Source: Bolinopsis microptera (taxonomy: Eukaryota; Ctenophora; Tentaculata; Lobata; Bolinopsidae). Taken from it: DNA of 64,000 nucleotides. The notes under the pieces are model-generated. The model did no database searches and had not been told where the DNA came from. It worked only from the letters and a program-made list of their open reading frames with translations. The translations under genes and the position numbers were made by a program. Numbering within the stretch: the first letter of the stretch is position 1; each line of letters begins with the position of its first letter. The stretch lies in the NCBI RefSeq assembly GCF_026151205.1, contig NC_087072.1, positions 2,313,375 to 2,377,374 on the forward strand, given 5' to 3'. Shown piece after piece: positions 5,601 to 58,915 of this stretch.

Positions 5601-6309
5601 TGTGAACGTCTGTGTTCGCTCAAGAAATCGATTATGATTTTTAAAACCTTATCGTCAACGTAAAATAAAAATCCATACTTTTTACAAATGGGCTGATGGC
5701 GATGCATTATAGGATAGAACCTGCCAATAAATAAATAAATTCTACAGAATCTTATGAGCATCAACCAGTGGTCACTTGACATGGCGAGCGTAAACGGTCT
5801 GTTAAGTATGACGAACTGTTATTATACTATATAAGTTATATAATATGCAGTATGAAATTATATTACCTAACTGCTCTTAAAAGCTAAATGAGGTAATGAT
5901 GAAGATGTCCGTTACCATGACAACTAGATGATATAACATTTTATTTAACCAGGACCAGCTGAAAGAAGATGGATGCGGTGACAATATCCAAGGTGCTCTA
6001 CGGATCTTAGACAACCTTCTCACCCTGATGGATGAGGTAGATGCCCTCCAGCAGGATATCACGGCTGTCAAGGCTGCCGTGGCAGAGAATCCGAGGGCTG
6101 ACGTCCGGCAAGAAGCCAAGCTGCAGGACCTGGACTACGAATACAGTCAACTCAAGTCTAACTGTGTGACTAAAGACCAGGATATGAGGGAAGGAGTGGA
6201 GTTCCTGGAGGCTATTGCTGAGTTGTTGAAGTGGGGCAGGGAGCAGAAGGACAGCGAGATGAAGTTCGATTGGAGCGAGTATCATCCTCTTGAACACCCT
6301 TATGAGAAG
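2679..6309 (+). CDS. Plakin-like gene, exons 1-7
   Basis: Seven exons encode about 366 residues of amphipathic helix. Exon 1 opens at CAG|GTA in phase 0 with VPSEEELAVKVYS and has no start codon, so it is internal. Exons 3-4 join in phase 2 to restore Arg; exons 5-6 join in phase 2 to restore Glu. Exon 7 (5953-6309, 119 codons) is the longest of the group and carries a clear heptad pattern around LDNLLTLMDEVDALQQDI. Its donor AAG|GTTTGG is weak; read-through would add 12 codons and stop, giving a possible short isoform. Introns are 111-840 bp, in contrast to the following 17-kb intron. Confidence 0.7.
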
Positions 6310-9300: not shown

Positions 9301-12300
9301 AGGAGCGACCCCTGATGTACAGTGGTATAAAAGTCAGTCACAAACCGATGCCGATTATTTGGAGTATAAAATAAAATAAAATCTCGGTTATGTAATTCTC
9401 GTTATATAGCACCACGCAGGAGAAAATATCGCGTCTAGACCATCGTAACGTTGACGCAGTTAAACTAATGGCAAGAATATACCCTCTCACAGGTTGAGAT
9501 GTATCGGGAGTGGGAGTACTATATGTAATTATAATCTGCTTTACAAAGTTGTCGATCTCTTTTAAATTGCACGTTCATGATCTATAAAAGTTCAGCACTG
9601 AATTTTCTACTTTTCTATAGAACGGTTGTTTTAGAAACAGCTTTTCAATTCAATTAAATAACTTAAAAATCTGGTTTATAAAATGCAATCGTTTAATGAG
9701 TGCTGTAGCATCAATCCTGATCTCTATGATATATTAGTAGTGATATCGCAAAGAAATTCAATTAAAATCAATGATATTGCGTCAAATGAAAATTATCTTT
9801 AGTGGTCGCTTTCTTTGAACAAAATTCTTAATGATTTTAAACCATAAAATAAATCTTGACTCATATCTGATTTCGTGATAATGGTAGATAAAGACTATAA
9901 AGAGTATTTTAACCTCGCTAAAAGCACCGGTCGTTTGAAAAGGTACTCATCTATCAAAGGCCTGACATCTGAGTTAATTTAAGTTCTTTCGATTAAATCC
10001 AACTTCAATTTTAAAAAGCTCAAAGTGATTTCATTAAGCGGACAGCCTTTAACGGTAGAAAAGCTGATAGCTGACAAAGTATGAAACTATGAACTATCGA
10101 GGGTAGTATGTTTAGATTATCAGGATAAATTTTGTACGAAAAAGGGCACGACACATAATATATTTCTAAACATGGTTTTTATAAAATACAAACATCTGTG
10201 ATCCAAATGTATATGAGAGCGGGAGTTCGACATAAACCGATCATACTAACAGCAAGTCTACTATCTGACTGTTACAATTCTAGTTCTTTTCATCGATAAG
10301 GTCTGTGCCTAAGTTCCCTAGAACAATAGGGTTGTGTCGTGATTCCTGTCCAACATTGATTCGCTTTTTAAGTTGAGTTAGGGAAATATCTCTATCATGC
10401 CGCTCAGGATCTCTTTCTAGGCGGTTTAACGTCGGAGGCTTCCCGACCCCATTCCGTGCATAAAAGGTTGGATCTGCGGGTGGATCACTTCTCGATCTGG
10501 GGTAAGGTATTCTCTCTCTGTTCGCTCTCCGCCTTCTATCACTGAACTCATACACGTAGTAATTAGAGACCACGTTGATGAAAGAGAGGTGCATGGAGAG
10601 GGTTCCAGGGATATAGGTACTCCCCAGTGGTGTGTTACTTGTATGTCCACCCTTGAAAATTACCAAAATCATCAGCACTGTTCCTGGGAAGACTGAAAGG
10701 ACGAACAGAGTGGTTACAATGATAATGGTGACCAAAGACTTTGTCTTGAGTTGAGATCCTGTTCTTGTGAGGTTGTGTGTTCTGGAGCAGATGACAAGGA
10801 CCCAGACGTTGGCGATCAGAGTAACCATCAGAGGTCCGACTTGGCAGAGGATCAGCATGAGAGGTCTAATGACCTTACCTGAGATGGAGGTGGTTCGTAA
10901 CCACAGTGGTTGACAAATGAACCTAGAAACGGAGAACTCCACTCCTTGTTTTCCATTGTTGTTCCATTGTGCAATGCCCACCACTATCAGCAACGTCCAG
11001 AGCCCAGCGGAGAGCAAGATACCTAGTTTTCTACGTTTTGAGGCGTTGGCGAGACTTCTGAGGGGGCACTGCATAACGTAGAGACGCTGGAGGGGCAGGG
11101 CTGCCATCAGGACCAGCTCCATTATGTTGGGGATAAACTGTACGTATGCTACTATCACACATATCAGCTCCCCTAGCATCCACCGCCTGCAGAACAACAT
11201 GTTTTCAGCTAACAACTCGTATTCAGTGCCTCGTTGACTTCATCGCAACGAATACTTTATCTCCAATCCAAATTGGTTTGTCTGGGACAAAAACTTGAAG
11301 GGAAAAGAAACTGCAACACTAACCTGTATAAGGCAGTTATAAAGACGGGAATAATTCTGAAGAAAACCATAAAAAGATCGGCCAGTGCAGTGCTCCTGAT
11401 GAGGGGGTCGTCCGTTTTCGTGAGGATGTGCCGTCTAGTGAGCACGGACAGGTTGCCATGTACACCTGGAAGTTTATAGATTTACTAGTGTAACCCATGC
11501 CTACGGCTGGGACTTCACTATCACAGTTGAAATGCACAAGTACAAACCCGCCTATTATATTCTAAAAATGGCAATACATTATCGTAGTTAAAACGGTGCG
11601 AAAGTACGAACTCGCTCAGTCCAAACACACCGTAATTTAATTCTGAATGGCCCTCACGTATCTAATAGTAATACTTGTTAGGCAATCCTGAGGTCCCCTG
11701 TCAAATTACCTAATTATACAGCCAATCTGTTTGGGGGGGGGGGGGGGGGGAGCGAGATTGGGAGAGAGGGAGAGCACGTGAGACACTTTATTATCAAATT
11801 TGGGTCACAAAATGATCAATTAAACCACTTACCACCGACCGATTTGAAAAACCTTAATCATTTGGCTTCGTCAGAGTTTTGTCGGCACTCTTTGGGCACT
11901 ATACAGACAGACATACACTAGACAGACACACACACATTTATTGAGATTATTAGTATAGATTGGTTATAATATACTAGATTCGTTCGTTAATAATACTCAC
12001 CGATTATAGCGAGGAAGAAGTCAATAGCAGCGATTATATAGAGCACATAGTTTTCCCAGCCCAAAACATTTCCAAGTTCGGTGATGTTCAGTCTTGGGAT
12101 GTAGTGAACAGTGTTACTTGTCACGGAGGGAGGCATTGATGCCGTGGTAAAGTTCATTATAGGAGCGACCCCTGATGTACAGTGGTATAAAAGTCAGTCA
12201 CAAACCGATGCCGACTATTTGGAGTATAAAATAAAATAAAATCTCGGTTATGTAATTCTCGTTATATAGCACCACGCAGGAGAAAATATCGCGTCTAGAC

Positions 12301-15300
12301 CATCGTAACGTTGACGCAGTTAAACTAATGGCAAGAATATACCCTCTCACAGGTTGAGATGTATCGGGAGTGGGAGTACTATATGTAATTATAATCTGCT
12401 TTACAAAGTTGTCGATCTCTTTTAAATTGCACGTTCATGATCTATAAAAGTTCAGCACTGAATTTTCTACTTTTCTATAGAACGGTTGTTTTAGAAACAG
12501 CTTTTCAATTCAATTAAATAACTTAAAATCTGGTTTATAAAATGCAATCGTTTAATGAGTGCTGTAGCATCAATCCTGATCTCTATGATATATTAGTAGT
12601 GATATCGCAAAGAAATTCAATTAAAATCAATGATATTGCGTCAAATGAAAATTATCTTTAGTGGTCGCTTTCTTTGAACAAAATTCTTAATGATTTTAAA
12701 CCATAAAATAAATCTTGACTCATATCTGATTTCGTGATAATGGTAGATAAAGAGTATTTTAACCTCGCTAAAAGCACCGGTCGTTTGAAAAGGTACTCAT
12801 CTATCAAAGGCCTGACATCTGAGTTAATTTAAGTTCTTTCGATTAAATCCAAGTTCAATTTTAGAAAGCTCAAAGTGATTTCATTAAGCGGACAGCTTAA
12901 TTTAACGGTAGAAAAGCTGATAGCTGACAAAGTATGAAACTATGAATTATCGAGGGTAGTATGTTTAGATTACCAGGATAAATTTTGTACGAAAAAGGGC
13001 ACGACACATAATATATTTCTAAACATGGTTTTTATAAAATACAAACATCTGTGATCCCAATGTATATGAGAGCGGGAGTTCGACATAAACCCGATCATAC
13101 TAACAGCAAGTCTACTATCTGACTGTTACAATTCTAGTTCTTTTCATCGATACGGTCTGTGCTTAAGTTCCTTAGTACAATAGAGTTTGGTTCTGTACAC
13201 CAATGAGCTGCTTTTTTAGTCCAATACTGAGTCGAATTTTAAGCCCAGGTCGAGTTAGGCAAATATCTCTATCTTGCCGCTCAGGATCTCTTTCCAGATG
13301 GTTTAACGTCGGAGGCTTCCCGACCCCATTCCGTGCATAAAAGGTTGTATCTGCGGGTGGATCACTTCTCGATCTGGGGTAAGGTATTCTCTCTCTGTTC
13401 GCTCTCCGCCTTCTATCACTGAACTCATACACGTAGTAATTAGAGACCACGTTGATGAAAGAGAAGTGCATGGAGAGAGTTCCAGGGATATAGGTACTCC
13501 CCAGTGGTGTGTTACTTGTATGTCCACCCTTGAAAATTACCAAAATCATCAGCACTGTTCCTGGGAAGACTGAAAGAACGAACAGAGTGGTTACAATGAT
13601 AATGGTGACCAAAGACTTTGTCTTGAGTTGAGATCCTGTTCTTGTGAGGTTGTGTGTTCTGGAGCAGATGACAAGGACCCAGACGTTGGCGATCAGAGTA
13701 ACCATCAGAGGTCCGACTTGGCAGAGGATCAGCATGAGAGGTCTAATGACCTTACCTGAGATGGAGGTGGTTCGTAACCACAGTGGTTGACAAATGAACC
13801 TAGAAACGGAGAACTCCACTCCTTGTTTTCCATTGTTGTTCCATTGTGCAATGCCCACCACTATCAGCAACGTCCAGAGCCCAGCGGAGAGCAAGATACC
13901 TAGTTTTCTACGTTTTGAGGCGTTGGCGAGACTTCTGAGGGGGCACTGCATAACGTAGAGACGCTGGAGGGGCAGGGCTGCCATCAGGACCAGCTCCATT
14001 ATGTTGGGGATAAACTGTACGTATGCTACTATCACACATATCAGCTCCCCTAGCATCCACCGCCTGCAGAACAACATGTTTTCAGCTAACAACTCGTATT
14101 CAGTGCCTCCGTTGGTTATATCAACGAATACTTTATCTCCAATCCAAATTGGTTTGTCTGGTAAAATACTCGAAGGGAAAAGAAACTGCAACACTAACCT
14201 GTATAAGGCAGTTATAAAGACGGGAATAATTCTGAAGAAAACCATAAAAAGATCGGCCAGTGCAGTGCTCCTGATGAGGGGGTCGTCCGTTTTCGTGAGG
14301 ATGTGCCGTCTAGTGAGCACGGACACGTTACCATGTACACCTGGAAGTTTATAGATTTACTAGTGTAACCCATGCCTACGGCTGGGACTTCACTATCACA
14401 GTTGAAATGCACAAGTACAAACCCGCCTATTATATTCTAAAAAGGGTAAAAAGGGCAATACATTATCGTAGTTAAAACGGTGCGAAAGTACGAACTCGCT
14501 CAGTCCAAACACACCGTAATTTAATTCTGAATGGCCCTCACGTATCTAATAGTAATACTTGATAGGCAATCCTGAGGTCCCCTGTCAAATTACCTAATTA
14601 TACAGCCAATCTGTTTGGGGGGGGGGGGGGGGGGGGAGAGAGCGAGATTGGGAGAGAGGGAGAGCACGTGAGACACTTTAGTATCAAATTTGGGTCACAA
14701 AATGATCAATTAAACCACTTACCACCGACCGATTTGAAAAACCTTAATCATTTGGCTTCGTCAGAGTTTTGTCGGCACTATTTGGGCACTATACAGACAG
14801 ACAGACACTAGACAGACACAAACACATTTATTGAGATTATTAGTATAGATTGGTTATAATATACTAGATTCGTTCGTTAATAATACTCACCGATTATAGC
14901 GAGGAAGAAGTCAATAGCAGCGATTATATAGAGCACATAGTTTTCCCAGCCCAAAACATTTCCAAGTTCAGTGATGTTCAGTCTTGGGATGTAGTGAACA
15001 GTGTTACTTGTCACGGAGGGAGGCATTCTTGCCTTGGTAAAGTTCATTATAGGAGCGACCCCTGATGTACAGTGGTATAAAAGTCAGTCACAAACCGATG
15101 CCGACTATTTGGAGTATAAAATAAAATAAAATCTCGGTTATGTAATTCTCGTTATATAGCACCACGCAGGAGAAAATATCGCGTCTAGACCATCGTAACG
15201 TTGACGCAGTTAAACTAATGGCAAGAATATACCCTCTCACAGGTTGAGATGTATCGGGAGTGGGAGTACTATATGTAATTATAATCTGCTTTACAGTAAG

Positions 15301-18300
15301 TTGTCGATCTCTTTTAAATTGCACGTTCATGATCTATAAAAGTTCAGCACTGAATTTTCTACTTTTCTACAGAACGGTTGTTTTAGAAACAGCTTTTCAA
15401 TTCAATTAAATAACTTTAAAATCTGGTTAACAAAACGCAATCGTTTAATGAGTGCTGTAGCATCAATCCTGATCTCTATGATATATTAGTAGTGATATCG
15501 CAAAGAAATCCAATTAAAATCAATGATATTGCGTCAAATGAAAATTATCTTTAGTGGTCGCTTTCTTTGAACAAAATTCTTAATGATTTTAAACCATAAA
15601 ATAAATCTTGACTCATATCTGATTTCGTGATAATGGCGGTAAAGATTATTTTAACCTCGCTAAAAGCACCGGTCGTTTGAAAAGGTACTCATTTATCAAA
15701 GGCCTGACATCTGAGTTAATTTAAGTTCTTTCGATTAAATCCAACTTCAATTTTAAAAAGCTCAAAGTGATTTCATTAAGCGGACAGCTATTTAACGGTA
15801 GAAAAGCTGATAGCTGACAAAGTATGAAACTATGAATTATCGAGGGTAGTATGTCTAGATTACCAGGATAAATTTTGTACGGAAAAAGGGCACGACACAT
15901 AATATATTTCTAAACATGGTTTTTATAAAATACAAACATCTGTGATCCCAATGTATATTGTATATGAGAGCGGGAGTTCGACATAAACCCGATCATACTA
16001 ACAGCAAGTCTACTATCTGACTGTTACAAATCTAGTTCTTTTCATCGATACGGTCTGTGCCTAAGTTCCTTAGTACAATAGAGTTTGGTTCTGTACACCA
16101 ATGAGCTGCTTTTTTAGTCCAATACTGAGTCGAATTTTAAGCCCAGGTCGAGTTAGGCAAATCTCTCTATCTTGCCGCTCAGGATCTCTTTCCAGATGGT
16201 TTAACGTCGGAGGCTTCCCGACCCCATTCCGTGTATAAAAGGTTGGATCTGCGGGTGGATCACTTCTTGATCTGGGGTAAGGTATTCTCTCTCTGTTCGC
16301 TCTCTGCCTTCTATCACTGAACTCATACACGTAGTAATTAGAGACTACGTTGATGAAAGAGAGGTGCATGGAGAGGGTTCCAGGGATATAGGTACTCCCC
16401 AGTGGTGTGTTACTTGTATGTCCACCCTTGAAAATTACCAAAATCATCAGCACTGTTCCTGGGAAGACTGAAAGGACGAACAGAGTGGTTACAATGATAA
16501 TGGTGACCAAAGACTTTGTCTTGAGTTGAGATCCTGTTCTTGTGAGGTTGTGTGTTCTGGAGCAGATGACAAGGACCCAGACGTTGGCGATCAGAGTAAC
16601 CATCAGAGGTCCGACTTGGCAGAGGATCAGCATGAGAGGTCTAATGACCTTACCTGAGATGGAGGTGGTTCGTAACCACAGTGGTTGACAAATGAACCTA
16701 GAAACGGAGAACTCCACTCCTTGTTTTCCATTGTTGTTCCATTGTGCAATGCCCACCACTATCAGCAACGTCCAGAGCCCAGCGGAGAGCAAGATACCTA
16801 GTTTTCTACGTTTTGAGGCGTTGGCGAGACTTCTGAGGGGGCACTGCATAACGTAGAGACGCTGGAGGGGCAGGGCTGCCATCAGGACCAGCTCCATTAT
16901 GTTGGGGATAAACTGTACGTATGCTACTATCACACATATCAGCTCCCCTAGCATCCACCGCCTGCAGAACAACATGTTTTCAGCTAACAACTCGTATTCA
17001 ATATCTTTAACTTCATCCGCAATCCAATTGATATTGTCTGGAAAATACTTGAAGAGGACAAAAACTCGAAGGGAAAAGAAACTGCAACACTAACCTGTAT
17101 AAGGCAGTTATAAAGACGGGAATAATTCTGAAGAAAACCATAAAAAGATCGGCCAGTGCAGTGCTCCTGATGAGGGGGTCGTCCGTTTTCGTGAGGATGT
17201 GCCGTCTAGTGAGCACGGACAGATTACCATGTACACCTGGAAGTTTATAATTTTAGTGCTTATAATAACAATTTTGAAGAAATCTGTGGCTTGAAGTTAG
17301 TATGATTTCTTTAGAATTTCACCTCCTTCTTTAATAATACTTACCGATTATAATGAGGAAGAAGTCGATCGCAGCGATTATATAGAACACTTCGTTTTCC
17401 CAGCCCAAAACCTTTCCAAGTTCGGTGATGTTCAGTCTTGGGATGTAGTGAACAGTGTTACTTGTCACGGAGGGAGGCATTCTTGCCTTGGTAAAGTTCA
17501 TTATAGGAGCGACCCCTGATGCAGGTAGAGTGGTGTAAAAGTCAGTCACAAACCGATCTCAACTGTTTGGAAATTTAAATAAAATCTAGTTTATGTAATG
17601 GCCATAAAATAGCACAAAGCAATAAAAAATATCGCGTTAGACATTAAATTATCGTAACGCCATTACATTATAGGAGCGACCCCTGATGCAGGTAGAGTGG
17701 TGTAAAAGTCATTCACAAACCCATCTCAACTGTTTTTAAAATTTATATAGAAACTAGTTTATATAATGGCCATAAAATAGCACAAAGTAATAAAAAATAT
17801 CTCGTCTCGTCTAGACATTATCAATCATCCTTTTACTGACGATATGCTGAATTTCTCCGTGGACGACATCATTAAGGCCATTGAAGACATCAAACCTAAT
17901 GCTGCATCAGGTCCTGACGAAATTCCAGTCACCCTTCTCAAGAACTGCAAGAAAGCCCTAGCAGTACGAATGCACATCATCTGGTCCAACTCTTTAGTTA
18001 CTGGGGAGGTCCCTAGTTTCTATAAGTTCTCACACGTATTTCCTCTCCACAAGAAGGATAGTCGAGCCAAACCAGCTAACTACCGACCTATATCACTCAC
18101 CTCCCATGTGGTTAAAGTATACGAGAGGGTGATAAGAAAAACGCTTGTAAACTATTTTGATATCAATAACCTCATATGTAGTAAGCAGTGGATAACGGGT
18201 TAGTAACCATAGTAACCATAGTAAGCAGCACGGATTTAGATCCGGCCGGGTTTGCCTTACTCAACTTCTCCACCATTTTGATGACGTTCTGGATTCTCTA

Positions 18301-21300: not shown

Positions 21301-24300
21301 TTTTCACACACCAAGCCGCCTTTGTTAAACACAGTCATACTCATAGTGGTTTCTTTCACTTAACAAAGAGCGGGCTAAAACTGGATTAAACCTACCGCAT
21401 TTTATTTCATGCGCTTGAATTCGAGAACGGGGAAATTCGAGTGCTATAATCATAATCAGTAAATTAATTTTCCGGAAAATATTTGCAACCGGATGAAAAA
21501 TTGTCGGGATCATGTACATCACAAATCACAGACAGGACAACCATACCTCAATTCAATATGGCATTGAATATAGTCTCCATTTTAAATGGAACCGTTATAC
21601 TGCTAGACAATCACAATGTCACATTGACGCTATTTCAAGGGGTTTACGTTGACAAATCTCGACCTGCATTTCTCTACGTCAAATATTACGACTGGTCAAA
21701 AGATTTCTCCACGTGAATCACATGTCGGCCAATGGCTCCGAACGTGTGTTCCATGTCCAATAATGGGGAAGAAACATAGTGCTGGGTAGAATATTAATGC
21801 TCGAGAACAATTACTGAATACCGGTACAAATGTCGTCAGTATCTTAAGAACAGCTCGGATTTGTGCTTAAATATTTTAGTTGAGAGAGCTGAGTAAAATT
21901 GTTTGCTTAAGTCTCCGTTTATAAACGACGACAAAAGAGCGAACTTATATTTTTACTTAATGCTAATAGTTCTTTTATTCAAATTTCTGATTGTTATGTT
22001 TCTGAATAGACTCAGTGAAATTTGAATAAAAGAACTATCAAAATGAGACTCAATAACACCACGGCATCAACTTTAACGCTAATAGTTAATAACTAGACAT
22101 GTCATTGTAACGAAAACGTGATGAATGAAAGCTGAAAAGCTCGTCGAATGAAAATTGCGATTGGGGCACATTAATTTCACCTTATATATGCTCTCTTGAC
22201 CCTTGTCCCTTAAAGTTAATAGTAAAAATAGATTTAAGTGTTTCCAAGAGAGATCCCTATAGCTTAAAGTAGAATACGAATGAAGTGGAATTGTACCTAC
22301 AGTTAAAGCTTTTCTAGGAATTTGAAATTAACAGACTTTCTTTTTGTTGCTGGAAAAGGCCTTGATTTGTCGGTATTTATAGTTATTGAACCCACGAACA
22401 GCAGCAAATTGATTTCTATAATCTTTTTAAAAGCTGAATACTGTGGTTTTACAGGTTGCAGCGAAGTGACATTTTAGTAGGATTTTGATTGCATACTATA
22501 CATCGTATATATCGGGAGGAATTGCGAAACAGCCTACAGAATCGATCATTGGAATCGACGAAAATGAAAATGTTGCGGAATAGACTTACTCGGAATTTAA
22601 CGAAAAAAATTGTCGGAAACTTTTTGACTGCAAAAATAATGTGGCCAGTCAGAGGATCGACCGCGGTTTTCTTCCCTTTTATTCATGTGTTTTGAACCCT
22701 AAAAATTTAGCCAAATTAAAAGTTTTGATGACAATCACAGGGCCTTAACCCCCTCCTTCTCCGTCAGCAACAGTCAGTATTTCTCCCCTCCCCCTTAACC
22801 CCCTCCTTCTCCGTCAGCAACAGTCAGTATTTCTCCCCTCCCCCTTAACCCCCTCCTTCTCCGTCAGCAACAGTCAGTATTTCTCCCCTCCCCCTTAACC
22901 CCCTCCTTCTCCGTCAGCAACAGTCAGTATTTCTCCCCTCCCCCTTAACCCCTCCTTCTCCGTCAGCAACAGTCAGTATTTCTCCCCTCCCCCTTAACCC
23001 CTCCTTCTCCGTCAGCAACAGTCAGTATTTCTCCCCTCCCCCTTAACCCCCTCCTTCTCCGTCAGCAACAGTCAGTATTTCTCCCCTCCCCCTTAACCCC
23101 CTCCTTCTCCGTCAGCAACAGTCAGTATTTCTCCCCTCCCCCTTAGCCCCCTCCTTCTCCGTCAGCAACAGTCAGTATTTCTCCCCTCCCCCTTAGCCTG
23201 CTGCTGACGTAGAATGTGACTAACGGGGTGTGAAGCTAAAAGTTTTATTTTACAACTCCTCTGGGATTTGAGTGATATGTTGTAAGTAATAATAATATGA
23301 CGATTGAATTATATGGATATTTTCACTCTAACCCTTTAGTCACTGGTCCAGGTATATTACCTTATATGGTAGTGTTACCATAGTAACATTACCTTATATG
23401 GATATTCTCACTCTAACCCTTTAGTCACTGGTCCAGGGGATTAGCAAGCAACAGAAGAAGTTCGATCAGCTTCTCAACCTTGGAAAACAGCTCCTCAAAA
23501 CCGAGCATCCTATGTCTAGAGTTATTGGGGTAAGTCTCCTTTTATTTTAATTTTACTGTTACTCATCTTGTCTTCTTGATTGTATAATGTATAAAATCCT
23601 ACAAGTTTTGCAATAAGAGTCAATATTTGATATTGATATCAATATATTAAATTTTGCATCTTTACCCAAAGTTTGAAGAATGTCAAATCAATTCTGCAGT
23701 CTACGGGTATAAATTCTTATAAAGCACTATGAATTTACTGACAGCCAGCCTTTTAATACAATTATTCATGGACAAATAGGATTGCCGTATCAGTGAAGGA
23801 AATGTTTTTTTACTCGATCGACAAATGGCAGAGATTCTCAAAAGTTGTCAAATTCTGTCAAACATTAGACAGTAAAATCCTGCACCACTGGGATGGTTGG
23901 GGGATTGTTAACCGTTATTAACCAGGTAACCGTTAGTAACCAGGTAACGGCGTTACCTGAGGTATACACGTGTTGTAGGTATTCTAGTTAGAATTAGAGA
24001 GGTTTTGTTTGATAAGAAAATATTATAACATTTAAAGACAGAGGCTACCTAAGCCCCACCTTCAGATCCGAAGTTCACTATGTGCTAGATTCATCCGATT
24101 TGAGGTAGAATTTGATGTAGATATTGTACTTTTGAACAAAGAAAACTCGTATATTCTGAATATGTAATCGAATTTGAACAAATATGGTCATTGCACAGCA
24201 AATATAACACTAGTGCACTGAAAATGCACGTTCAAATAAATAAAATAAATAAAATGTACAATCTTAAGTTATTACTCAACATTAACTTAACCCGAAATAA

Positions 24301-30300: not shown

Positions 30301-33300
30301 TAGAGAGCAAATATTGTCGGATGCTAAATATAACCCAAGTTCTCAGCTCCTTACAGAGTTTTTAAGAACACTTCAGGGCATGAGAGCTTTGAGCTTGCTT
30401 TCAAGGTATTCATCGATGAACTTCAAAGTTTAATAAATATGCCCCCTACGCATATAAAGCAGCAAAGTATTAAACCTTTTGTCGGCAGCCAATCGGACAA
30501 CAGCGCTTAATTTCGTCACAGTTGAATGTATCGTTAAGAGTGAACAGCCGGTTTAAAAGTTCTGAATATTTGGAGGAGAAAGTTGGGATATGCAGAAGAC
30601 AGTTGTTGCTTGCAAGGTGAATAAATCTGGACCACTTTATTCACGGAAGAGTGAATGTTCACCTTTGACTCCCCCTGAATAAGATGGAGGGGTACTTATA
30701 TCAACTCGATAAACACTGTTGACTCCTCCATTTGTGGCTTATCATACACTTGGTAACTTCCCAAAGCCTACCTGGAGTGGACTTTCTCATTTAATGATCA
30801 TTTAACTTAAAAGCTTTTGTGAAAATAGACATGGCTCTTAATCTTCAAAAGGATTGTGGTCATAAGTTGGCGGGGGAGGTTGAGATATCGGTAGAAAAGT
30901 TGTGGTCTTGTTTTTATGGTGCATATTACTAAGACTTCATCGTAATTGGCCGCTTGAGTAACTTCAAAAGTATAATAATATTTCTTAAGTGCTTAACCTT
31001 TATTACTCATACATATCAAGATATAAAATCAGAGGGATTTATCTGTAAAACTGTGAGCATGGAGAAAGCAAAATATGAACAAAATAAATCTTCATTACTT
31101 TCCCAATTTCCGAACTGCACTTTTTAGTACTCAGCAAAGGATTTGAAATATAAGCCGTGGGTATCAACATTTTTAAAAATCGGGTTAACATACTATTCAA
31201 AAGCGAATTCGTGTTTCCAAAAGAAGAAAGGATTGCCGCTCATCAATTTGTTGTAAACAGAAATTAAAATATCAAGAAAAGATACGACAGAGTAAATAGT
31301 AATCGGTAAACAAACCAAATCAGTATTTTAAAACATAAAGTATCTAATTAGGTACAAAGTAACAAAACTGGTTAATGACCAGGGAGTGTTCACACGGATT
31401 GTTAGTGGCTCACGTATCCTGTATGCATTCGTAACAGGAAATCAGGAAATGCTTCCACTGGGTTTTATACCACTAATGATTAAGGATAGTTCTTCACGTT
31501 GATGAGGTTATTTTAATCCAATATCTTAACGCCCTCATGATCCTAAATTAGATACGTGTCAGATGTTTTCGAAAGAGGAGCCGCTTTCCTCATTCTCATT
31601 GTCCGTTGCTTACTTCCTATCTTATATCTGGCTCCTCCTCATGTAAATGCAATCAGATTACCGCCACCTGACGCAGGAGGTTGTTGTAGTTTTTATGCTG
31701 AATGGAATGTGAAGTAGCGGCATTCGACCATGTTGCGGCTAGCTCTTCACGGTCCACCGTGGTCAGCTCTATGATCTGTCCCAACTCACAAGTCCCGTTG
31801 AGTATGTCCTGGGGTTCGCCTGGTCATATCATCAATCTAGTACAGACACTGGGGGTCCATGGGGAAACTTTAACGTCCGTGAAACAATTTAATTCAGTTT
31901 CAGTCGCTGAAATAAATTCTTACTGAGTTACATAAAGTATTTTAAGATTATGACCTGCATTAGCGTTTAAATCATCCGCAAACTTTATTTAGACGTTTAA
32001 GAATTTTTACACCTCCAATATTATAAATTTATTTTTTGTTCTGAATAATTTTCTTTAGAATGGCCCCATAGTTATACCACACGATGTACCGGGTGGCCCA
32101 AAATACCAACCTATTATGCAAGATGTGAACTGGTAGTCTGGCATAATCATATTACCTATTGAGTCACATTTCAAATTCCAACATATAGTTACTTCGGGGC
32201 CACCCTGTATCACAACACAATTGTAACCATCGGAATGCCAAACCAATAACACATACCTCCTTCTTTACTTATCTACGTCAATGTTAGGACAACGAAATTT
32301 ATAAAATTAATCCTTGTGTTTGATCAGGAGGAGGTTGAAGAGTTGTGTGAGCTATGGACCTGCCTGAAGTGTTGCTAGGTTACTGGTTACTGGTTACTGG
32401 TTACTGGTTACTAGGTTACTAGGTTACTAGGTTATATTAATCCTTGTGTTTGATCAGGAGGAGGTTGAAGAGTTGTGTGAGCTATGGACCTGCCTGAAGT
32501 GTTGCTAGGTTACTGGTTACTGGTTACTGGTTACTGGTTACTAGGTTACTAGGTTACTAGGTTATATTAATCCTTGTGTTTGATCAGGAGGAGGTTGAAG
32601 AGTTGTGTGAGCTATGGACCTGCCTGAAGTGTTGCTAGGTTACTAGGTTACTAGGTTACTAGGTTACTAGGTTACTGGTTACTGGTTACTGGTTACTAGG
32701 TTACTAGGTTATATTAATCCTTGTGTTTGATCAGGAGGAGGTTGAAGATTTGTGTGAGCTATGGACCTGCCTGAAGTGTTGCTAGGTTACTGGTTACTGG
32801 TTACTAGGTTACTAGGTTACTAGGTTACTAGGTTACTGGTTACTAGGTTACTAGGTTACTAGGTTATATTAATCCTTGTGTTTGATCAGGAGGAGGTTGA
32901 AGAGTTGTGTGAGCTATGGACCTGCCTGAAGTGTTGCTAGGTTACTGGTTACTGGTTACTAGGTTATATTAATCCTTGTGTTTGATCAGGAGGAGGTTGA
33001 AGAGTTGTGTGAGCTATGGACCTGCCTGAAGTGTTGCTAGGTTACTGGTTACTGGTTACTAGGTTAAATTAATCCTTGTGTTTGATCAGGAGGAGGTTGA
33101 AGAGTTGTGTGAGCTATGGACCTGCCTGAAGGACCTGGCTTGTGTAGCTGAGAAACACATTCAACACAACAACGACTACGAGCTCTTCTGGAAGAGATTA
33201 AACAATGCCAACTTGTGGATCACTCAGAAACGGAACCTCTTGGACACGAGGTAAGAAGTTTAAACTGCTCAAACCGGAAGTTTGGAAAATAAAGATCGTA

Positions 33301-36300
33301 TATCTGAAGAGTTTTATAGTTGAGGTATTATTTAGACAACTTTTCTCTCTTCAATGTGGGGGAGACGGGTGTTCTTGCTCCCTCTTAAAAGTAGACACTA
33401 CCTGTGGTAAGGGCACTTTATTGCGACAACTTACTAACTGCGAGCGTCTGGAAGAAGGGAGGGGTGGGTATGAGGTAGCAGAGGCACATATTAGGTGCGG
33501 TAAAAAAATCGAAATTATGCGGTACCGCACCCGACTATAAAGGTAAAATGTGCGGTAAGGTGCGGTAAATTTTTACCAATTATGCGGCAAATGTGCGACG
33601 ATTTTTTCGAAATTTGTGCGGGAATTGTGCGGTTTTCTTTTGCATTTTCTGAAGGACTTTGGAAGTTCTAAACGTATAACCGCCGCTCTTATCAAAAATA
33701 GGTCTGTTTATGTGTTACTGAGGGTGTAGTTCTTTACTAAAACCATGATTGAACCTATATTGAGATTCAGTTATCTGAGAACAGTGACTTGATCTGGTAG
33801 AGATCAGGAGACAGTTATTTGAAGACGCCTCTTGATAGAGTCGATTAGATCCCATGCGTGATCGCAAATATTTGACACGCTTGTTGGCATTGATCGTCAG
33901 TACTTGTAAACCATTTGATCCAAGATCCATTAAGCCCACTAAAAAGCCAACGCTACAACGAATAGAGCTCATTACCCGATAAAAAGGGCTGCAGGTATGA
34001 TCGAAGTACGGTAACGACGAGGGTTCCATAACGGCCTGGGTCACGGTCCCGAAAGGGCCTGGGTCACGGTCCCGAAAGGGCCTGGGTAACGGTCCCGAAA
34101 GGGCCTAGGTCATGGTCCCGAAAGGGCCTGGGTCACGTGGTAACCGGGTCACGTGGCCCAGGCATGAGTTCCAAAACGGCCTGGGTCACGGTACCGAAAG
34201 GGCCTGGGTCAGGGTCCCGAAAGGGCCTGGGTCACGTGGTAACTGGGTCACGTGGCCTAGGTATGAGTTCCAAAAGGGCCTGGGTCACGGTCCCGAAAGG
34301 GCATGGGTCAGGGTCCCGAAAGGGCCTGGGTCACGTGGTAACTGGGTCACGTGGCCTAGGTAGTAGGTATGAGTTCCAAAAGGGCCTGGGTCACGGTCCC
34401 GAAAGGGCCTGAGTCACGGTCCTAAAAGGGCCTGAGTCACGGTCCTAAAAGGGCCCGACTTTTAACATATTTTGGTTTTTACACTCGAAAATCTTAACGC
34501 GAAAATTTCAAAATTATGCGAAATTACGCGGAAAATGCTAGATTATGCGGAAATATGCAGAAAATTACAAAATGTGCGGAAGTGTGCGGAAAACAATAAA
34601 TTATGCGGAAATGTGCGGAAAACGGTAAATTGTGCGATCCCGCACCCATCGCACCTAATATGTGCCTCTGTGAGGTAGCGGTGTGGTAGAGGGGTGGGTA
34701 ATGGGTATGAGGTAGCGGTGTGGTGCTAAGTGCTAACTCCTAGCTACCACTTCACTAGCTAATGGAGCCGAGGTCGGCAGGGGTAACATGATGTGGGACC
34801 TTGACAAGTGGGAGGGCTCTTCTCCTTAATTTGCGGCCTGTATTGTTGTTTTTAAAAATGGATTGATACTCTGTAATTCTCAATTCTTGGCACTCGTTCC
34901 TAAAATCAACTGAATAACACCAAGCAACTCCTTCGCAAAATATAGCTTTAATCTTTTTTTATGAGAAGCCGAATTTCCGTCGACTTCCAACCACAATTGT
35001 TAGAACGCGTGCATATTGCTTCTCACGAGTCTCACAATATAATATAGATCGATAATTATTCGAATATTAATAATAATTATGTTAATACTAAGGATATTTA
35101 TCCCAGGTACAATGCCAAGTGTTTGGATGTGGTTGCTTCTTCCGAGCGACTTCAGGAGTTAGTGGACATGAAGAAGGACATTATTGGCTACGATCCAAAC
35201 ATCGTCGAGATCGCAAACTTGGGCAATGTAATTCCAATAATTTGTATAATTTTTTGCCGTATTTGTTCTCGAAATTAGAGTTAGTCCGATAATTCTCCGT
35301 CTTTATTTTACTATTTTCGTGAGGTAGGCTAATTCGGCTAATAGACCTCACACCATATACCTTCAGATTGTGGTTAATTTGTCGAAGAGAAAGATGCCTA
35401 AGTCAGGTGAAAGAGTACTGGCATTATGTCCCTTCAAAAGGGCGGGGCCCAACGGCAACGTCGACCACAGACATGTTAGTCATTTTTTGGATAAATAACT
35501 GAATTTTCCCCGTTAATTTTTCCCCCTTATAATGTAAATATAAGTAAAAATGTAAAATGCTCATTGGTCTTGAAAAATCCACATAACTTGAATACTGTGT
35601 TCACATTCTTGTACACAACAAATAACAATAATACTAATGTCTTTACTCGGTCAGGACATCATCTCGCGCGGTGAGGAGTGCCTGTACATCAGTAGTACCG
35701 CAGTGGACTTGTGGAGGATTAAGAAGGGCTTGTCACCTCCCCCCAAAGTTAACGGACATCACGGAAATACCCCGAACAGCAACGGACCCGGCAACTTTAG
35801 TTCCGGACTCGTTACAGAAGTTCCATCGTGTATCTTCACTACGCTGCCCCCTGACGAGGAGTGCCTTAATGAGTCAGAAAAGTGAGTCTAATTGTTTATT
35901 AATGAGTGGAGACGTGTGCTTAATTACTTGATAACTGTGTCCGGCCGTCAACATTTTCAGTGACCAGCCCTGATAACTGGTCAAACTGATTTAGGGCGAT
36001 CCTTTCATAACACCTAAACGGTTAGATACAAGTCACTGAAGTCACCAGTGTTGCACGCCATCGAATGTTTCCAAAGCGGCGAATTCGACAGCGTTTCGGC
36101 GTTAAGTTATGTCATTTGAAAATGAAAAATAAGTTGTGATTTCGGAATTTAAAAATTAAAGCATTGTAGATTTATTACCAACATCAATTATAGTTTCTAC
36201 TTGCATTAATTAATTACAGATTAGAGGAGACTTGAGGAATTAAGTGACAACAATCTTACACAAATATGTGTGTTCAAAACGTGCCTCACGCACAAACAAT

Positions 36301-39300
36301 GAATTAATGTGAAAAATTCCTAAGATACTATCAGTTGTCAACTGCACACTTGAAGAACAATAGACTTCCATAGACCGTTGCCTCTTGAAGATCAATCCTC
36401 TCAGCGCTCGTTCTTATTTCTTGATATTGTTGCCGATGTTGTAAATTGCTAAATTGTATAAGCTTATACCAGTGAAGAGTGAAACATTCAAGGCAAATTC
36501 TTTATTTTTATCACGGACTGCGAAAATTCGTAAGTCACTTCGAATACCAGGTGTACAATCAACCAACTATACAGTATAAAGATATTTTACTTTTTTGATA
36601 CATTTTTTTAAACTGTACTTTATTCAGGACTGGTTCAGACTATCAGGCACTAAAGGTATCATACGATCGACAGCGAGGATACCTAAAACACGTTATGGTT
36701 AAACACGAATTCTTTAGCAACTGTGATGTAGTCCTCACTTGGCCCTACGACAAGGTGACATGCAATTTCCCCTTTAAAGTTTGTGGATTTGTGGATCCCG
36801 CTTCTGTACGTAGGCTCATTCATAGTTTTTTGAGTAGCATGAAATCTCGCAGCATGGCTACGTCAATTAAACGCGGAGTTGCCAAATACTGTACAAATTA
36901 TATTATATTATATTTTCTCAGAACTTTGAAGCAGAGTTGCGGGGAAGAGAGCTAGTGATAACAAACCTGAAGGAAGCAGGTGAAGGACTGATTGTGGAGG
37001 CGGACAACCACCCCAACAGTGATAAAACAGACATACTGGACCGCCAGAATGCAGCTCTTGACCACTGGGACACCCTGCTTAAAATGCACCAGAACAAAAC
37101 TTCAGCTCTGTCAGATCTAGAGGCTAAAGTTGAGGGTTTTGATAAGGATGTGGACGATGTGGTGGCTAGATTTGCCGTGGTGGTCATCACGCCTGATAAT
37201 ATTGGGCCTGCTGAGAAGAGCCTGGATAAAATTTTGAAGGACATTGTTGCGATGGTGGATTACGGTGACGAGTTAGATGAGCGGATTCACAAGGAATCTG
37301 ACGACACATGTGCTGAGGATTTCCAGCCTCTTATCGTATGTGGAATTGCCTGGCATTCTTTACATTCATTTTCTCACGGCAAAGAAAATGTTAAATTAAA
37401 TATCATTTACAATTTCCCACAATTTAAATGACCGTTTAAGGCAGAAGTATGCGATCAATTTTCATACCAATGACATAATCATATCTTTCGAAATTTTCAT
37501 GACGTAGATTTGGTGATCTTATACTCGAAAACTGTAAACCTTGTAAACCTAATTGATTCAATCTCTAAAAAGTGACCCTTATCTTAAAATGTCCTCAGAA
37601 CAAGCTGTACAGAGTGCAAGTGAAACTGTCTAAATTCCACCCAACCTGCGAGGCTAAAGCCAGATGTGTAGGACGTCTTATGGCGCTGCAGGATCTGCTC
37701 CAAAACGTCATGGTAACTCTGGAGAACGTGTCGGACACTCTTGCTGACATGCATTTGTATCCTCTGGAGGTCGAAAGGGTCGCTGAGGATATCAAGAAAT
37801 TGCAGGTAGGCATTATTAGTTTCTTTAATGAGACTTCTCACGGTTTAGTTTCAGAAATAATTATAGTGGTTCTCGTTGTAGAGTGTAGCAGTCTCGCTAC
37901 TCAACATGTTTAATATTATTACCACAAGTGCTCCTCTATTTTTGACACGAATTGACGCACTACTATTCAAAATTTTCTAGAAGTTCTATTCTTGACTAGC
38001 ATTGACGTAAGGCCGAGTGAAATTAGACTTTTTTCACATGATTGTTATGATTAAGAAGGTAATCATTGCACGTCAAGAATTACTTGTTTTTACGATTTGT
38101 AGCAGGCCAAATTAATTTGCTTAATCTCGTAAATTTTAAAGCTCGATCTGAACTTCGCATTATGTAATTGTTTACAAATCCGTGGGAAATGTCTAGTTTA
38201 CAAGAAATTCGGACGACACCTCCAAAATGTCCAAACTGCGAAACATCCCGTGTAGTTCTCAGTCTCTTGTGAAGATTCTCACGTGGGAATACGTGACAAA
38301 TACGTCATAAATAATCCACGCTTAGCACGTCACCCACTATTGACTTTTGGGCGGGGGTTCCCATTTACACTGTGAGATGCTGGACACTGTCAATTCAAAT
38401 TTTACTCAAATTCTACACATTCCTTGGCTTGGTGGCCCTATTCTTCAGAAGTCTAAATAAACCCACCCAGCTTAGATCTCACTTATTTTTGTGTAATGAT
38501 CTGTTCATTATTTTATTTTTCTAAGTTATACCATATCAAATCCCTCACATAATATGGACCCATAAATTACAGCTGATATCAGAAGACTTGGTCGGGGAAG
38601 ATGAAAGTATCATAGAGATAGAGAGTATCCGGGAGGAACTGGAGGTGATTCTCAAAGATAGCCCTCTTCTTGTGGAGATAGGCCACCTACTGGACAAACG
38701 TGATACTATATTCATTGAGATCGACCAAAGATCGGTAAGTGTGCTTCAATATTAACTAAAACTAGATATTATCTGGAACTAGATATTATCTGGAACTAGA
38801 TATTATCTGGAACTAGATATTATCTGGAACTAGATATTATCTGGAACTAGATATTATCTGGAACTAGATATTATCTGGAACTAGATATTATCTGGAACTA
38901 GATATTATCTGGAACTAGATGTTAATTTCCTACTTTGTACTATAAGCCCTACTTGGTAGTTATCAATTACAGCCTAACCTATATAACTTGTCCAGTAACA
39001 GTACCAGTAACAGTAACACGATATTAGAGTAGAGACAGTGCTAAAGTTGGTGATCACTCCTAGCAAGCCTTATCCTGAAGTATGGCTTTAGGGTAGATAT
39101 GATCAGTAAATTTGTTGGTACTGAGTCAGTATCTACAAATTTACCGTTCATATCTTGGGAAGTACAGGATCTTGTGGATATCAATAATTAACTGACCAGT
39201 ATACATGTACGATCAGCAGACCGTATAAGTCAGAGGCAGGGGGTGTTGAGCAATGAGCATGTGTATAGCAGAGCTGGGTATTTATAATTATATCCTATTG

Positions 39301-42300
39301 TTACTTAGTTATAACCAACATGTATGAGCGATGGTAACATTACCTTATATGGTAGTGTTACCATGGTAACATTACCTTATATGGACAGTGCTGACAACAT
39401 GTATGCAACAGATCTGTTAGTTTGCTTGTAACGTTTGGTGCCAAATTTTCCCCACCTTCTCTTGGACTCTGTTATATTGTGGATAGGCACACAAATCCGA
39501 AATCACTACTTTGATAAGCTTCTTTTACATTTCACAGAGTGGCACCGAGTGGCACAGAGTGGCACCTGAGTGGCACCGAGTGGCACAGAGTGGCACCACC
39601 TCCAATTTAATGGTTTTGATTGTGCAAAGCATTAGCAGTTTACATGGAGACGTCCGCTCCATTTCAAATGTTGTTCAATCTGAATACATCTGAAATATTT
39701 GTCTGAAACTTGAGCCATCACTTTGATCAGGTGTGGGTTCTAAAGAACAACTTTTGATCTGCACCACTGTTATATTCTGTAGCAACTATTATCGGTTCCT
39801 CGTATATGAGCTTCTTCTTCTTTCGCATGTGCTTGCAGATTAGTCCCTAATGTTCTTGTGTTATGGAGGCTGGCTCTCTAATCAGATAATTAGTTACTCC
39901 CCCGTTAAACGGCTCAAAACTCACGAGATTAAATCCTGAAGTGATGTAGATTGAAAGTCTTCATAATTAACACATCCAGATATGAACTAAACTGAATATT
40001 TCTCATAAACTCGAGTAATATTACTGAGCATATCCGCATAGAACAGGTATACATGGTCGTTAGAAGGGCCCTTCAAGGTCCTCTCTCTCTGTTCAAGGTC
40101 CTCTCTCTCTTCCATGCCAACCGTTATGATCCGTATACAATATACATGCTGTTCTTATATCAGAAGAACCACCTGCTCATATTTAATTATAGTGCAGTAT
40201 TATACTTGTTTTGTAGTGTTGGTATTGTCAAAAGTTACCAATATTTTGTAGTACACTAAATTGTATTTGAGTTCTATACTCGAAAATGTTCTATTTTGTG
40301 CTGTGGTTGTATTGTTTAGTCCCCGCTTAAGAGATTCCCAGTTTTGGCTATTAACCGTATTTTATTGGAACACACCGACTGACCGATCTGCTATACTCCA
40401 GCTACATGAATCATACTCATTCGAGTCATTTTGAGGGATATGAGATTTGATATAAAACCTGAGCGTAGAAGTGGTTTGCTTATAGCAGTTGCGAAGCATT
40501 CAGGACATTTTATCCGGTTTAAGGTCGGCTATTAACTTTCTACTACTACTAATTCGGCACGAAGTTCGCCAGATTACCCCCTTCATATACCCCTGTCCCG
40601 CATAAGGGCTCGCTAGTCCTCTTCAGTGTTTGTCCCAACTTCCTTCACTTACATAGACAGATAGGTTTACTTGCTAGTTACAACTTCAATAGCCAGAGAG
40701 TCGCTCTGACATGGGCACTGTTTTGTTTACCCTTATTAATATTTAAATACTTTCAGTGAAATCTCTGTTAATAGTTAATATTATGTTTCCTTTACTTTCC
40801 TTGCCTTAATGTTTTGATCCGTACTTCGTTGTGACTTTACTCTAAAATTCTCTATCCCCTTTTTGAACAACCTCTTAACCCTGTCTCCCTCTTCTAGCAA
40901 ATATTATCTGGGGATAGTGAGCCCGGGATAGCTCACTACGACGTCTCAATAGCAAGGGCTCTCCACTGGCTAGAGGACGCCGAGGGTAAACTCAGGAAAG
41001 AACAGCTACAACCATCCTTTAAACTTAGATACCAGCTTCTTACGGTGAGTTTTTAAACTTTGTGTTTTATAAACTTATTTTAAGGGGGAGGGTTCACCCT
41101 GATTTTTTTGTGAAACTTGGTTTCGAGATAGCAGTTGACCAACAAACTAGGACCAGTGACCGAACTTTTGAGGGGGTCCCGGACCCCAACCGCCAAACGG
41201 TGCCCGCGGGGCAGCCACGCCCATATTTGGTCCAAATTAGGCCCAATTTAGCCAAATACCCTCAACATGCCCAAAACCCAGATTGTAGGTGCTCTACTTG
41301 TAGCTAGTGGTCCCTTGAACTCGTATATGAATTTTCATCAAAATTGGACAAAAAATGACTGAGTTATGAGCCAAAAACCATATGCCCATATTTGGGCATA
41401 CGCACCAAATTTGGTCGATTTTGGCCCATAAATTGGTCAAATATCAATATTTTTGAATAAAACCAACTTTATATGGAAGGTAAGCCTATACTACACATTC
41501 TCTATGATTATCAGCTCAGTATCTACCTAACTGTGGATTCTGTGTTCAATTAATCGCAAAAAATGAACAAAATCGCCCATATCTCAGTTCGCGATATTTG
41601 CGAAACTGATTTCGTTCAAAACAATAGAACTCAATAGGGTTTCAATATTTTTACATGAAACTTTCAGAATCAACGTAGAATCGCATTTCGACCTTAAGTT
41701 TTAATATGGAATTTTGAGTTAGGCCTTTAAAAAAATTTGGCGGCCAAATTCTGAAATTTGCCGGGCATTTTTCAGAATTTGGCCGCCAAATTTTTTTAAA
41801 GGCCTAACTCAAAATTCCATATTAAAACTTAAGGTCGAAATGCGATTCTACGTTGATTCTGAAAGTTTCATGTAAAAATATTGAAACCCTATTGAGTTCT
41901 ATTGTTTTGAACGAAATCAGTTTCGCAAATATCGCGAACTGAGATATGGGCGATTTTGTTCATTTTTTGCGATTAATTGAACATAGAATCCACAGTTAGG
42001 TAGATACTGAGCTGATAATCATAGAGAATGTGTAGTATAGGCTTACCTTCCATATAAAGTTGGTTTTATTCAAAAATATTGATATTTGACCAATTTATGG
42101 GCCAAAATCGACCAAATTTGGTGCGTATGCCCAAATATGGGCATATGGTTTTTGGCTCATAACTCAGTCATTTTTTGTCCAATTTTGATGAAAATTCATA
42201 TACGAGTTCAAGGGACCACTAGCTACAAGTAGAGCACCTACAATCTGGGTTTTGGGCATGTTGAGGGTATTTGGCTAAATTGGGCCTAATTTGGACCAAA

Positions 42301-48150: not shown

Positions 48151-49637
48151 AGTCTTCTTCTTCCTACTTTACCTACATTCTGTTGCCTACCCTGTCGACA
48201 ATTTTTGAAGAAATGTTTTCTTTGTCAATACTCTTCAATTATAAATCTAATAAACGTACTAAATGTAGCCTCGTATTGTCGTTCCTATTGTCGTCTATGT
48301 AGCTTAGTTACACCGCTAACTTGGAATGTCCTATGAACCTGGTAACATTAGTGTCCTCATTGTTGACTTTGTAGTTTGTATTGAAACCCTCGTGTGGACA
48401 ATAGACGTCTCTACACTTTGGCCTTGGTTCGTTTCTGTTTAGCTTAGAGCCTCACTTGTTGAATTAAATTTATGGCAGCTTGCCACATTTTACCTGATAT
48501 TGCTGTTACGTTTTGACAGGCTTTTACTTTGTAGAATGTACGATGTGGGAGACGAAAAGATTGTTTATTTTTTACGTTATTTCCGGCCTTTTAGGTGTTA
48601 TGCATAAAGGGTTTACTTCAATATTTAATGCAATGTTTACTTCTGTCAACCCATAGTACCAATATGAACCAATAGTTTGATTAATCAAAGATTCGTTCTC
48701 TTTTTGGTTCACAAACCATTACATCCTTAGTTTGGGAATAGTTGTCCACAATTTGTGCTCCACGAAGTTTTGCAGTTTGGGCTATTTATTTAGTTTCAAT
48801 GCTTGGTTATATATAACTAATAGTATAGTGATTAATAGCTTGATCTTCTGATTTCGTGATATATAATAAGAATATAACACTTAGTATAAAACAATAAAAT
48901 TTCACCATTTCTTGTCATCAAATTGCTTTACCAGTTTTTTAGATCCACCCGCTCCAAGAATTGTGATGCAACATTCCATCACTGCATACGTGCCATGATA
49001 TTACTTTTAATCTATAAAATATAGATTGCAGCGATGACAAATCAATATAATAGATATCCTGGGGCTATTTAGGATTATTATCTAGATTTTATTGGATAAA
49101 GCGTAGTGATCAAACGTATAACTAATGGTATAATATGTGTCATACAAATTAGATGCAAACACCATGTTATAGTAAAAGGCGGATGATATTGTTGTATCCA
49201 ATGTTCATGGGTTTGTAATGCATCTGACTTAGTAATTCAAACTGAGTTCATCAAGATGAGACTCAAGGACCCAGCGACTTTATAATCCACCCCTAATCAT
49301 AGACAATAATGAAATTAATTAATTACAATTAGTTTAAATCAATAAAGTAATAGCGGGAACTAAGTCAGATCAGAGCGCTCATTTTGTGTATTTAACTCAT
49401 TAGGACCAACTGTACATCTCCAGTGATCCCTTAAAAGTGCTGTTACTAGTCTGTGTCACTAGTAACAGCACTAGTGAAATCACTAACTACCCAATTAATG
49501 TACTTTTAAAATTCTACAACAAAAACTCCAAATAATCTCCATTTTCAACTCTGTTAGATTGATTGTAGGTGTTGTAGTGCTCTTGTGAGTTAGTAGTAGG
49601 AAACGAATTAGGCTTCTTATTTAAATAATCTGCAAAG

Positions 49638-58735: not shown

Positions 58736-58915
58736 ATGTCCCGATCAATATCGGAAAAACAGGACATCTTTACATATTTATTTGCCAATAAATCTGTATC
58801 AGCATCCTCACTCCACACAGCACTACCTCACATTAAGAAAAGCTCTGTTGCTCGAGCAGTTAAAGAGCTCCTAAAAAGTGGTGATCTCACTAAAGAGCGA
58901 GATCTCTGGTTGTAA
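58736..58915 (+). CDS. Winged-helix-like N-terminal frame (offset from the filamin frame)
   Basis: From ATG 58736 a 59-codon frame reads MSRSISEKQDIFTYLF, an SLHTALPHIKK helix, then SSVARAVKELLKSGDLTKERDL before TAA at 58913. The helix-turn-helix plus short strand pattern resembles winged-helix domains such as Z-alpha, although the Z-DNA-contacting Asn and Tyr of Z-alpha are not present at the matching places. The filamin frame opens at 58894 in another register, and its first residues (LVVTDQGINTFGQFF) read like the natural continuation of the wing. So the two are probably one protein interrupted by a one-base frameshift, a sequence error or an unrecognised splice. A TAA follows an overlapping out-of-frame ATG at 58731. 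Confidence 0.45.
   Translation: MSRSISEKQDIFTYLFANKSVSASSLHTALPHIKKSSVARAVKELLKSGDLTKERDLWL

Follow-up and report, generated by a model that had tools for sequence, protein, structure and literature searches.

The window, that is the whole stretch of 64,000 nucleotides analysed, contains a gene with spectrin-like exons on its forward strand, two of which (exons 8 and 9 in the numbering of the initial annotation) are listed in Table 1. Joined together they encode a peptide of 84 residues, of which 5-71 align with plectin (3pe0) at an E value of 1.5e-4 and with no gap across the junction; spectrin chains are matched more weakly than plectin. In the same peptide Pfam Spectrin was identified at residues 2-48 (E 1.4e-7, 32.4 bits, cut-off 29.9). 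These two matches support the plakin-like nature of the gene proposed initially; judged by homology, plakin is the likely family of the host gene, and exon 9 and its junction with exon 8 are supported by the match to plectin. An exon further upstream (about 5952-6345) matched plectin, desmoplakin and BPAG1 weakly (E 0.12-0.35), its best match being a C-type lectin (3jqh, E 2.3e-5), which is taken as a coiled-coil resemblance. Whole-frame scans of Pfam and PDB, too blunt for short exons, found nothing.

Exon 9 is preceded by an intron of 9,560 nt and followed by one of about 2.4 kb or more, assuming that no exon is missed before a candidate at 35655 in our own exon prediction. Its donor scores 6.0 bits on a rough splice-site matrix of our own. 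The start of exon 8 is ambiguous because another acceptor in the same frame, which lies 12 nt further upstream and gives a start at 23425, outscores the one at 23437 on the same rough matrix and is preferred by the exon finder; both candidate starts fall inside a duplicated segment. Downstream of the spectrin-like exons and in the same direction there is a 1,702-codon open frame (58894-63999, + strand) with six filamin-type stretches, which could belong to the same gene or to a neighbour. Within the span of the + strand spectrin-like exons lies a unit of about 2.9 kb in tandem (7360-17255), comprising three full copies and one partial copy, about 94-96% identical, with long receptor-like frames on the - strand and Pfam 7tm_1 in the one copy tested.

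Table 1. Coordinates of exons 8 and 9, of the duplicated acceptors and of other filler-bearing loci in the window.
Feature	Start	End	Strand	First exon base	Remarks
Reverse-transcriptase interruption	18179	18228	+		30-nt GTAACC-bearing filler between two 10-nt direct repeats
Exon 8, extra copy of acceptor region	23309	23352	+		44 nt, one mismatch, ends CAG/G
Exon 8 filler	23353	23393	+		41 nt, GTTACCATAGTAAC palindrome
Exon 8, real acceptor region	23394	23437	+		second copy
Exon 8	23437	23529	+		31 codons, phase 0-0
Unit 1	32304	32369	+	32328	decoy (AG 32326-32327), 42 nt of exon, no difference from unit 7
Filler 1	32370	32433	+		TGTTGCT, (A)GGTTACT units, final GGTT
Unit 2	32434	32499	+	32458	decoy
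Unit 3	32564	32629	+	32588	decoy
Unit 4	32711	32776	+	32735	decoy, sole exon-part substitution
Unit 5	32866	32931	+	32890	decoy
Unit 6	32966	33031	+	32990	decoy nearest the real exon, predicted 261-nt exon
Unit 7	33066	33131	+	33090	real acceptor and exon start
Exon 9	33090	33250	+	33090	161 nt, phase 0 in and 2 out, donor GTAAG
39.3-kb element	39316	39405	+		palindromic GTTACCATGGTAAC flanked by 11-nt direct repeats CAACATGTATG, the latter read by eye
49.6-kb array	49636	49971	+		132-nt unit repeated, GTTAC filler, incomplete final copy of 72 nt that aligns to the others with a 4-nt gap

The edge of exon 9 is occupied by an array (32304-33131, + strand) of seven tandem copies of a 66-nt segment, which is formed by the end of the intron, CAG and the first 42 bases of the exon (AAATTAATCC...TTTGATCAG followed by the exon bases). 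The copies are 97-100% identical to each other and their number is far above chance; a 19-nt core of the unit has 7 matches on the + strand and none on the - strand of the 64 kb scanned. Successive copies start 130, 130, 147, 155, 100 and 100 nt apart, neighbouring lengths being paired (130, 130 and 100, 100), and this head-to-tail arrangement of seven units of 100-155 nt is that of a minisatellite, with units of tens of bases or more. The acceptor is identical in the seven copies from -22 to the AG. Each contains a pyrimidine-rich stretch, CAG and the motif TTAAT, which we take to be branch-point-like and whose second A lies 17 nt before the last intron base. The units differ at base -23, which is A in units 1 and 7 and T in units 2 to 6, and at exon base 15, where unit 4 alone has a G>T change (GAG>GAT, E>D). 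Units 1 and 7 show no differences. The tandem copies, the identity of the decoy acceptors with the real one and the continuation of only the last copy into the full exon were all described in the initial annotation and are confirmed here; its acceptor coordinates hold as last intron bases, and the first exon bases are those of Table 1.

The six fillers between the units begin without exception with TGTTGCT and continue with (A)GGTTACT units, and they differ only in how many of these units they hold, in an optional A and in whether T or A directly precedes the next copy. A nearly invariant coding part had been set initially against a variable filler. The first half of this statement stands, with one substitution in the 6 x 42 exon bases of the decoys; the contrast does not, because the fixed letters of the filler are equally constant, and what differs is apparently slippage in unit number and not constraint. 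With no more than this one change among those bases, and a missense at that, the array seems to be of recent origin and free of visible coding constraint; purifying selection on the decoys finds no support. Outside the window, two patterns had no match in viral contigs and two had none in bacterial and archaeal genomes, while a 16-nt pattern hit 32 stretches in viral contigs, taken as chance matches. No near match to positions 31000-34000 was found in a plasmid collection, and no Rfam family was identified at the gathering threshold.

The acceptor of exon 8 is also duplicated. Here 44 nt including the CAG are present in two copies around a GTTAC-bearing filler, of which 26 nt recur exactly at 39339-39364, and the duplication is a scar of the same kind as the exon 9 array.

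The window is rich in tandem arrays, 30 of them (from 49 tandem-repeat rows, merged by us) making up 5.5% of the bases. A pyrimidine-rich 50-bp unit with an internal CAG is repeated nine times at 22743-23195, some 240 nt before the exon that starts at 23437. A 17-bp unit is present ten times at 38749-38924, beginning some 15 nt beyond the end of a predicted exon (38526-38734), and a GC-rich array occupies 34033-34636, with GGCCTGGGTCACGGTCCCGAAAG units at 34033-34455 and AAATTATGCGGAAA-type repeats at 34501-34636. Direct repeats of at least 10 nt around a filler were counted as 40 events in the window versus 12-17 in 5 simulations.

The consequences of using a decoy can be read from the frame. 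The six decoys read EEVEE/DLCELWTCLKCC-stop, with an in-frame TAG after 16 codons in every case, as the initial annotation had anticipated. On the rough matrix the best donor inside the array reaches 0.5 bits, compared with 6.0 for that of exon 9, so that in practice the decoys could only lengthen exon 9, from 161 nt to a predicted 261, 361, 516, 663, 793 or 923 nt. They carry the early stop of a poison exon but, for want of a donor above about 0.5 bits, form no discrete cassette, and the exon shuffling suggested initially is not supported since decoys with so poor a donor offer no ready cassette exons. Tandem acceptors of the NAGNAG type, which lie a few bases apart and share a common branch point, were considered and rejected: the spacing here is 100-155 nt and every unit has its own branch-like TTAAT and pyrimidine-rich stretch.

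Preference for the proximal acceptor, invoked in the initial annotation, is a rule for short introns. With large flanking introns the splice sites closest across the exon are preferred, according to the part of PMC9225289 available, and for an upstream intron of the length found here this points to the real acceptor. The titration or regulation of splicing that had been put forward is not supported. For 3' sites the same part of that source gives only a significantly reduced upstream preference under exon definition, which leaves room for some use of the decoys. Exon definition is suggested here by the length of the upstream intron, and by it the real acceptor would be favoured over decoys that would make exons of 261-923 nt. 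From this analysis the real acceptor is expected to be the main site, with some leak to the nearest decoys, and the spare splice sites of the array are probably mostly ignored.

The reading that we prefer, with a probability of about 0.72, is that the array is a young, repair-born minisatellite spanning an exon edge in a plakin-like gene, a nearly neutral passenger and no dedicated regulator. The intron-exon edge would have suffered a break that left long overhangs, or a pair of nicks separated by about 66 nt, and repair would have placed a copy of the 66-nt segment to either side of a short filler of the GGTTACT type. As the unit structure indicates, the filler-plus-copy unit would then have been amplified recently to seven by slippage or unequal exchange, and one duplicated unit probably multiplied between the outer pair, because the outer copies share A at -23 and all five inner ones have T. 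Since its flanking introns appear long, exon 9 would be recognised across itself and the acceptor nearest its donor (33089) would therefore be used. Use of a decoy would be a minor leak, ending in an early stop and probably in decay of the mRNA, and for this reason the array would be nearly neutral. Counting against a passenger is the fact that each decoy is a complete-looking acceptor followed by the same purine-rich exon start.

With regard to the first step, Vaughn and Bennetzen (2014) reportedly traced small tandem duplications to breaks with overhangs. In the available part of PMC8355091 such duplications arise from breaks with 3' overhangs, and they resemble the array in that a segment of tens of bases is copied in direct orientation. 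The long filler between the copies falls outside a simple fill-in model and counts against it. Filler templated locally, in the style of polymerase theta, found no support at exon 9, exon 8 and the reverse-transcriptase locus, where the longest local matches were 7, 8 and 7 nt against null means of 7.3, 8.4 and 7.7; only for the filler at 49.6 kb is there a local copy, of 12 nt, a length reached by 6% of null draws.

Related fillers of the GTTACYATRGTAAC type were identified at four loci of the window, between direct repeats of 10 nt (reverse transcriptase), 11 nt (39.3 kb), 44 nt (exon 8) and about 72 nt (49.6 kb). In the first of them the filler breaks a reverse-transcriptase frame, whose two pieces align with neighbouring stretches of RVT_1 (E 0.006, below cut-off, for profile 2-41; E 3e-14 for profile 40-139). 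An exact 18-mer is common to the reverse-transcriptase and 49.6-kb fillers and an exact 26-mer to those of exon 8 and 39.3 kb; element sequence is shared in this way, each word linking one pair of loci only. The pattern GTHNYYATRRNAAC, the RFX/X-box consensus, was chosen after the fillers were seen; it has 11 matches on both strands in 8 places of 6 loci, where shuffled sequence gives an expectation of 0.74 and a maximum of 5. The three palindromic fillers folded as DNA gave z scores of -3.1 (exon 8), -2.4 (49.6 kb) and -1.7 (reverse transcriptase). The word GTTACCATGGTAAC did not occur in the literature searched. Further palindromes were seen in the window: GTTACCATGACAAC (5911-5924), which precedes a likely acceptor (AG 5951-5952) by about 28 nt and has no flanking direct repeat; two GTAACTATGGTAAC palindromes 21 nt apart in a 21-nt tandem (3325-3359), about 30 nt downstream of an apparent exon end at 3292; and a GTTAC-bearing hairpin read by eye (49437-49471), formed by a perfect 14-bp inverted repeat in which GTGCTGTTACTAGT is separated by 7 nt from its reverse complement.

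These fillers raise the alternative that a mobile family of short palindromes with a GTTACYATRGTAAC core makes target duplications of varied length, that insertions at acceptors copy the splice sites and that the exon 9 array is an amplified case. The shared words, the pattern matches and the direct repeats at the four loci are in its favour. The exon 9 filler is hard to place in such a family: it is not palindromic (z -0.2) and has in common with the palindromes only the 8-mer GGTTACTA, which occurs 6 times outside the array, not clearly above chance (mean of 1.4 and maximum of 7 in simulations), so its tie to them is weak. Nor do GTTAC-type 6-mers show any excess outside the array in the 64-kb window. 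Fillers with at least two GTTAC words are confined to 5 of the 40 direct-repeat events; one of the five, at 26121, has a 246-nt filler and is likely chance. Of the 14 clusters of GTTAC words outside the array, 4 lie within the filler of a direct-repeat event. Indels between the four aligned copies of the 2.9-kb GPCR gene, the fourth being partial, were considered as a source of polarised insertions, and the listed runs of at least 6 include no GTTAC insertion. A transposon with a fixed target duplication is rejected by repeats of 10, 11, 44 and about 72 nt, and of 66 nt at the array, and we know of no transposase whose target duplication varies in length. Such variation in length argues for break repair and against a transposase. 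On balance a mobile family is unlikely as the source of the array.

The proximity of these features to exon edges was also counted. Palindromes lie within 60 nt of an exon edge in 3 of 6 cases (p 0.003), and 2 of 8 listed duplications span an edge (p 0.010), a figure that falls to 1 of 8 (p 0.16) in a stricter count because the exon 8 copy ends exactly on the edge. Both statistics are small, post hoc and weak. The eight duplications were picked by eye, one right-hand copy being off by one base, and the 13 exons were partly our own predictions in a list drawn up after looking, which also weighs against the mobile family. The list comprises 11 of 19 predicted rows and two extra exons (about 5952-6345, and 3230-3292, the latter added after the palindrome beside it was seen); the start of exon 8 was moved from 23425 to 23437 and the exon at 36922 was lengthened, and the predictions at 7531, 16183, 18314 and 36628 and four pieces of the filamin frame were left out. 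A wider and unlikely proposal is that tiny GTTACYATRGTAAC palindromes are spread by break repair, copying 10 to about 72 nt of target, landing often at exon edges and minting acceptors, so that the exon 9 array and the exon 8 pair would be two stages of one process leading to alternative acceptors and perhaps to new introns. Counting against a fresh intron in the exon 9 filler is the absence of a good donor on the rough matrix.

A functional decoy array, in which the repeated acceptors capture the spliceosome, yield an unproductive isoform containing a stop and set the dose of the plakin isoform, is very unlikely. The acceptor common to the six decoys and the real exon, the stop after 16 codons in all of them and the duplicated acceptor of the preceding exon are what such a function would predict; against it, the stops come free because the filler is TAG-rich, the array makes no discrete poison exon and looks young, and its folding as RNA does not clearly exceed chance (z -1.43, with 2 of 20 shuffles folding as well). 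An assembly artefact, by which one or few true copies were inflated to seven, is highly improbable, for although neighbouring units are identical (130/130) or one base apart (100/100), as in a mis-assembled repeat, there are four unit-length classes, a private substitution in copy 4, a private base shared by copies 2-6 and no Ns in the window, and the filler and the first duplication would stay unaccounted for.

Seven identical 3' splice sites facing one donor form a natural competition, whose outcome would tell whether the long introns of the host organism follow exon definition or choice of the first acceptor. The array also points to a possible class of GTTAC-filled duplications in the genome, and if palindromic fillers are a genome-wide class they would be a concrete route to splice-site duplication.

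A published minisatellite bearing an acceptor was not recognised in a limited literature search, which is weak evidence of absence, and PMC12783039, in the part available, does not match a repeated splice site in a minisatellite. Three known systems come close. In Daphnia, new introns are attributed to staggered breaks that leave inserted DNA between direct repeats of 4-12 bp (PMC4202315, available in part). Inserted DNA between direct repeats is likewise found at the exon 8, exon 9, reverse-transcriptase, 39.3-kb and 49.6-kb loci, with the difference that the repeats here measure 10 to about 72 nt, in contrast to the exon-edge repeats described in that part of the source, and that fillers of different loci share sequence. 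The second system is the set of constructs of Reed and Maniatis (1986), in some of which the exon sequence was reportedly truncated. These are artificial, whereas the exon 9 array offers seven natural sites behind an intron of 9.6 kb. In them 3' sites at different distances from one donor competed and the upstream one won, as recounted in the accessible part of PMC9225289.

The closest system is the 37-bp VNTR in intron 7 of human F7 (coagulation factor VII), like the array a natural tandem repeat with a splice site per unit, in which many copies compete. Normally only the exon-proximal copy is used, according to the part of PMC6627357 available. That copy is the first in the F7 repeat and the last in the exon 9 array, and the former repeats a donor while the latter repeats an acceptor with 42 coding bases. 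As in F7, the unit would hold a working splice site of the adjacent exon, judging by the acceptor present in 7 of 7 copies and by the plectin homology. In these terms the array is an unusual but understandable object, a putative minisatellite spanning a 3' splice site and the acceptor counterpart of the F7 donor VNTR.
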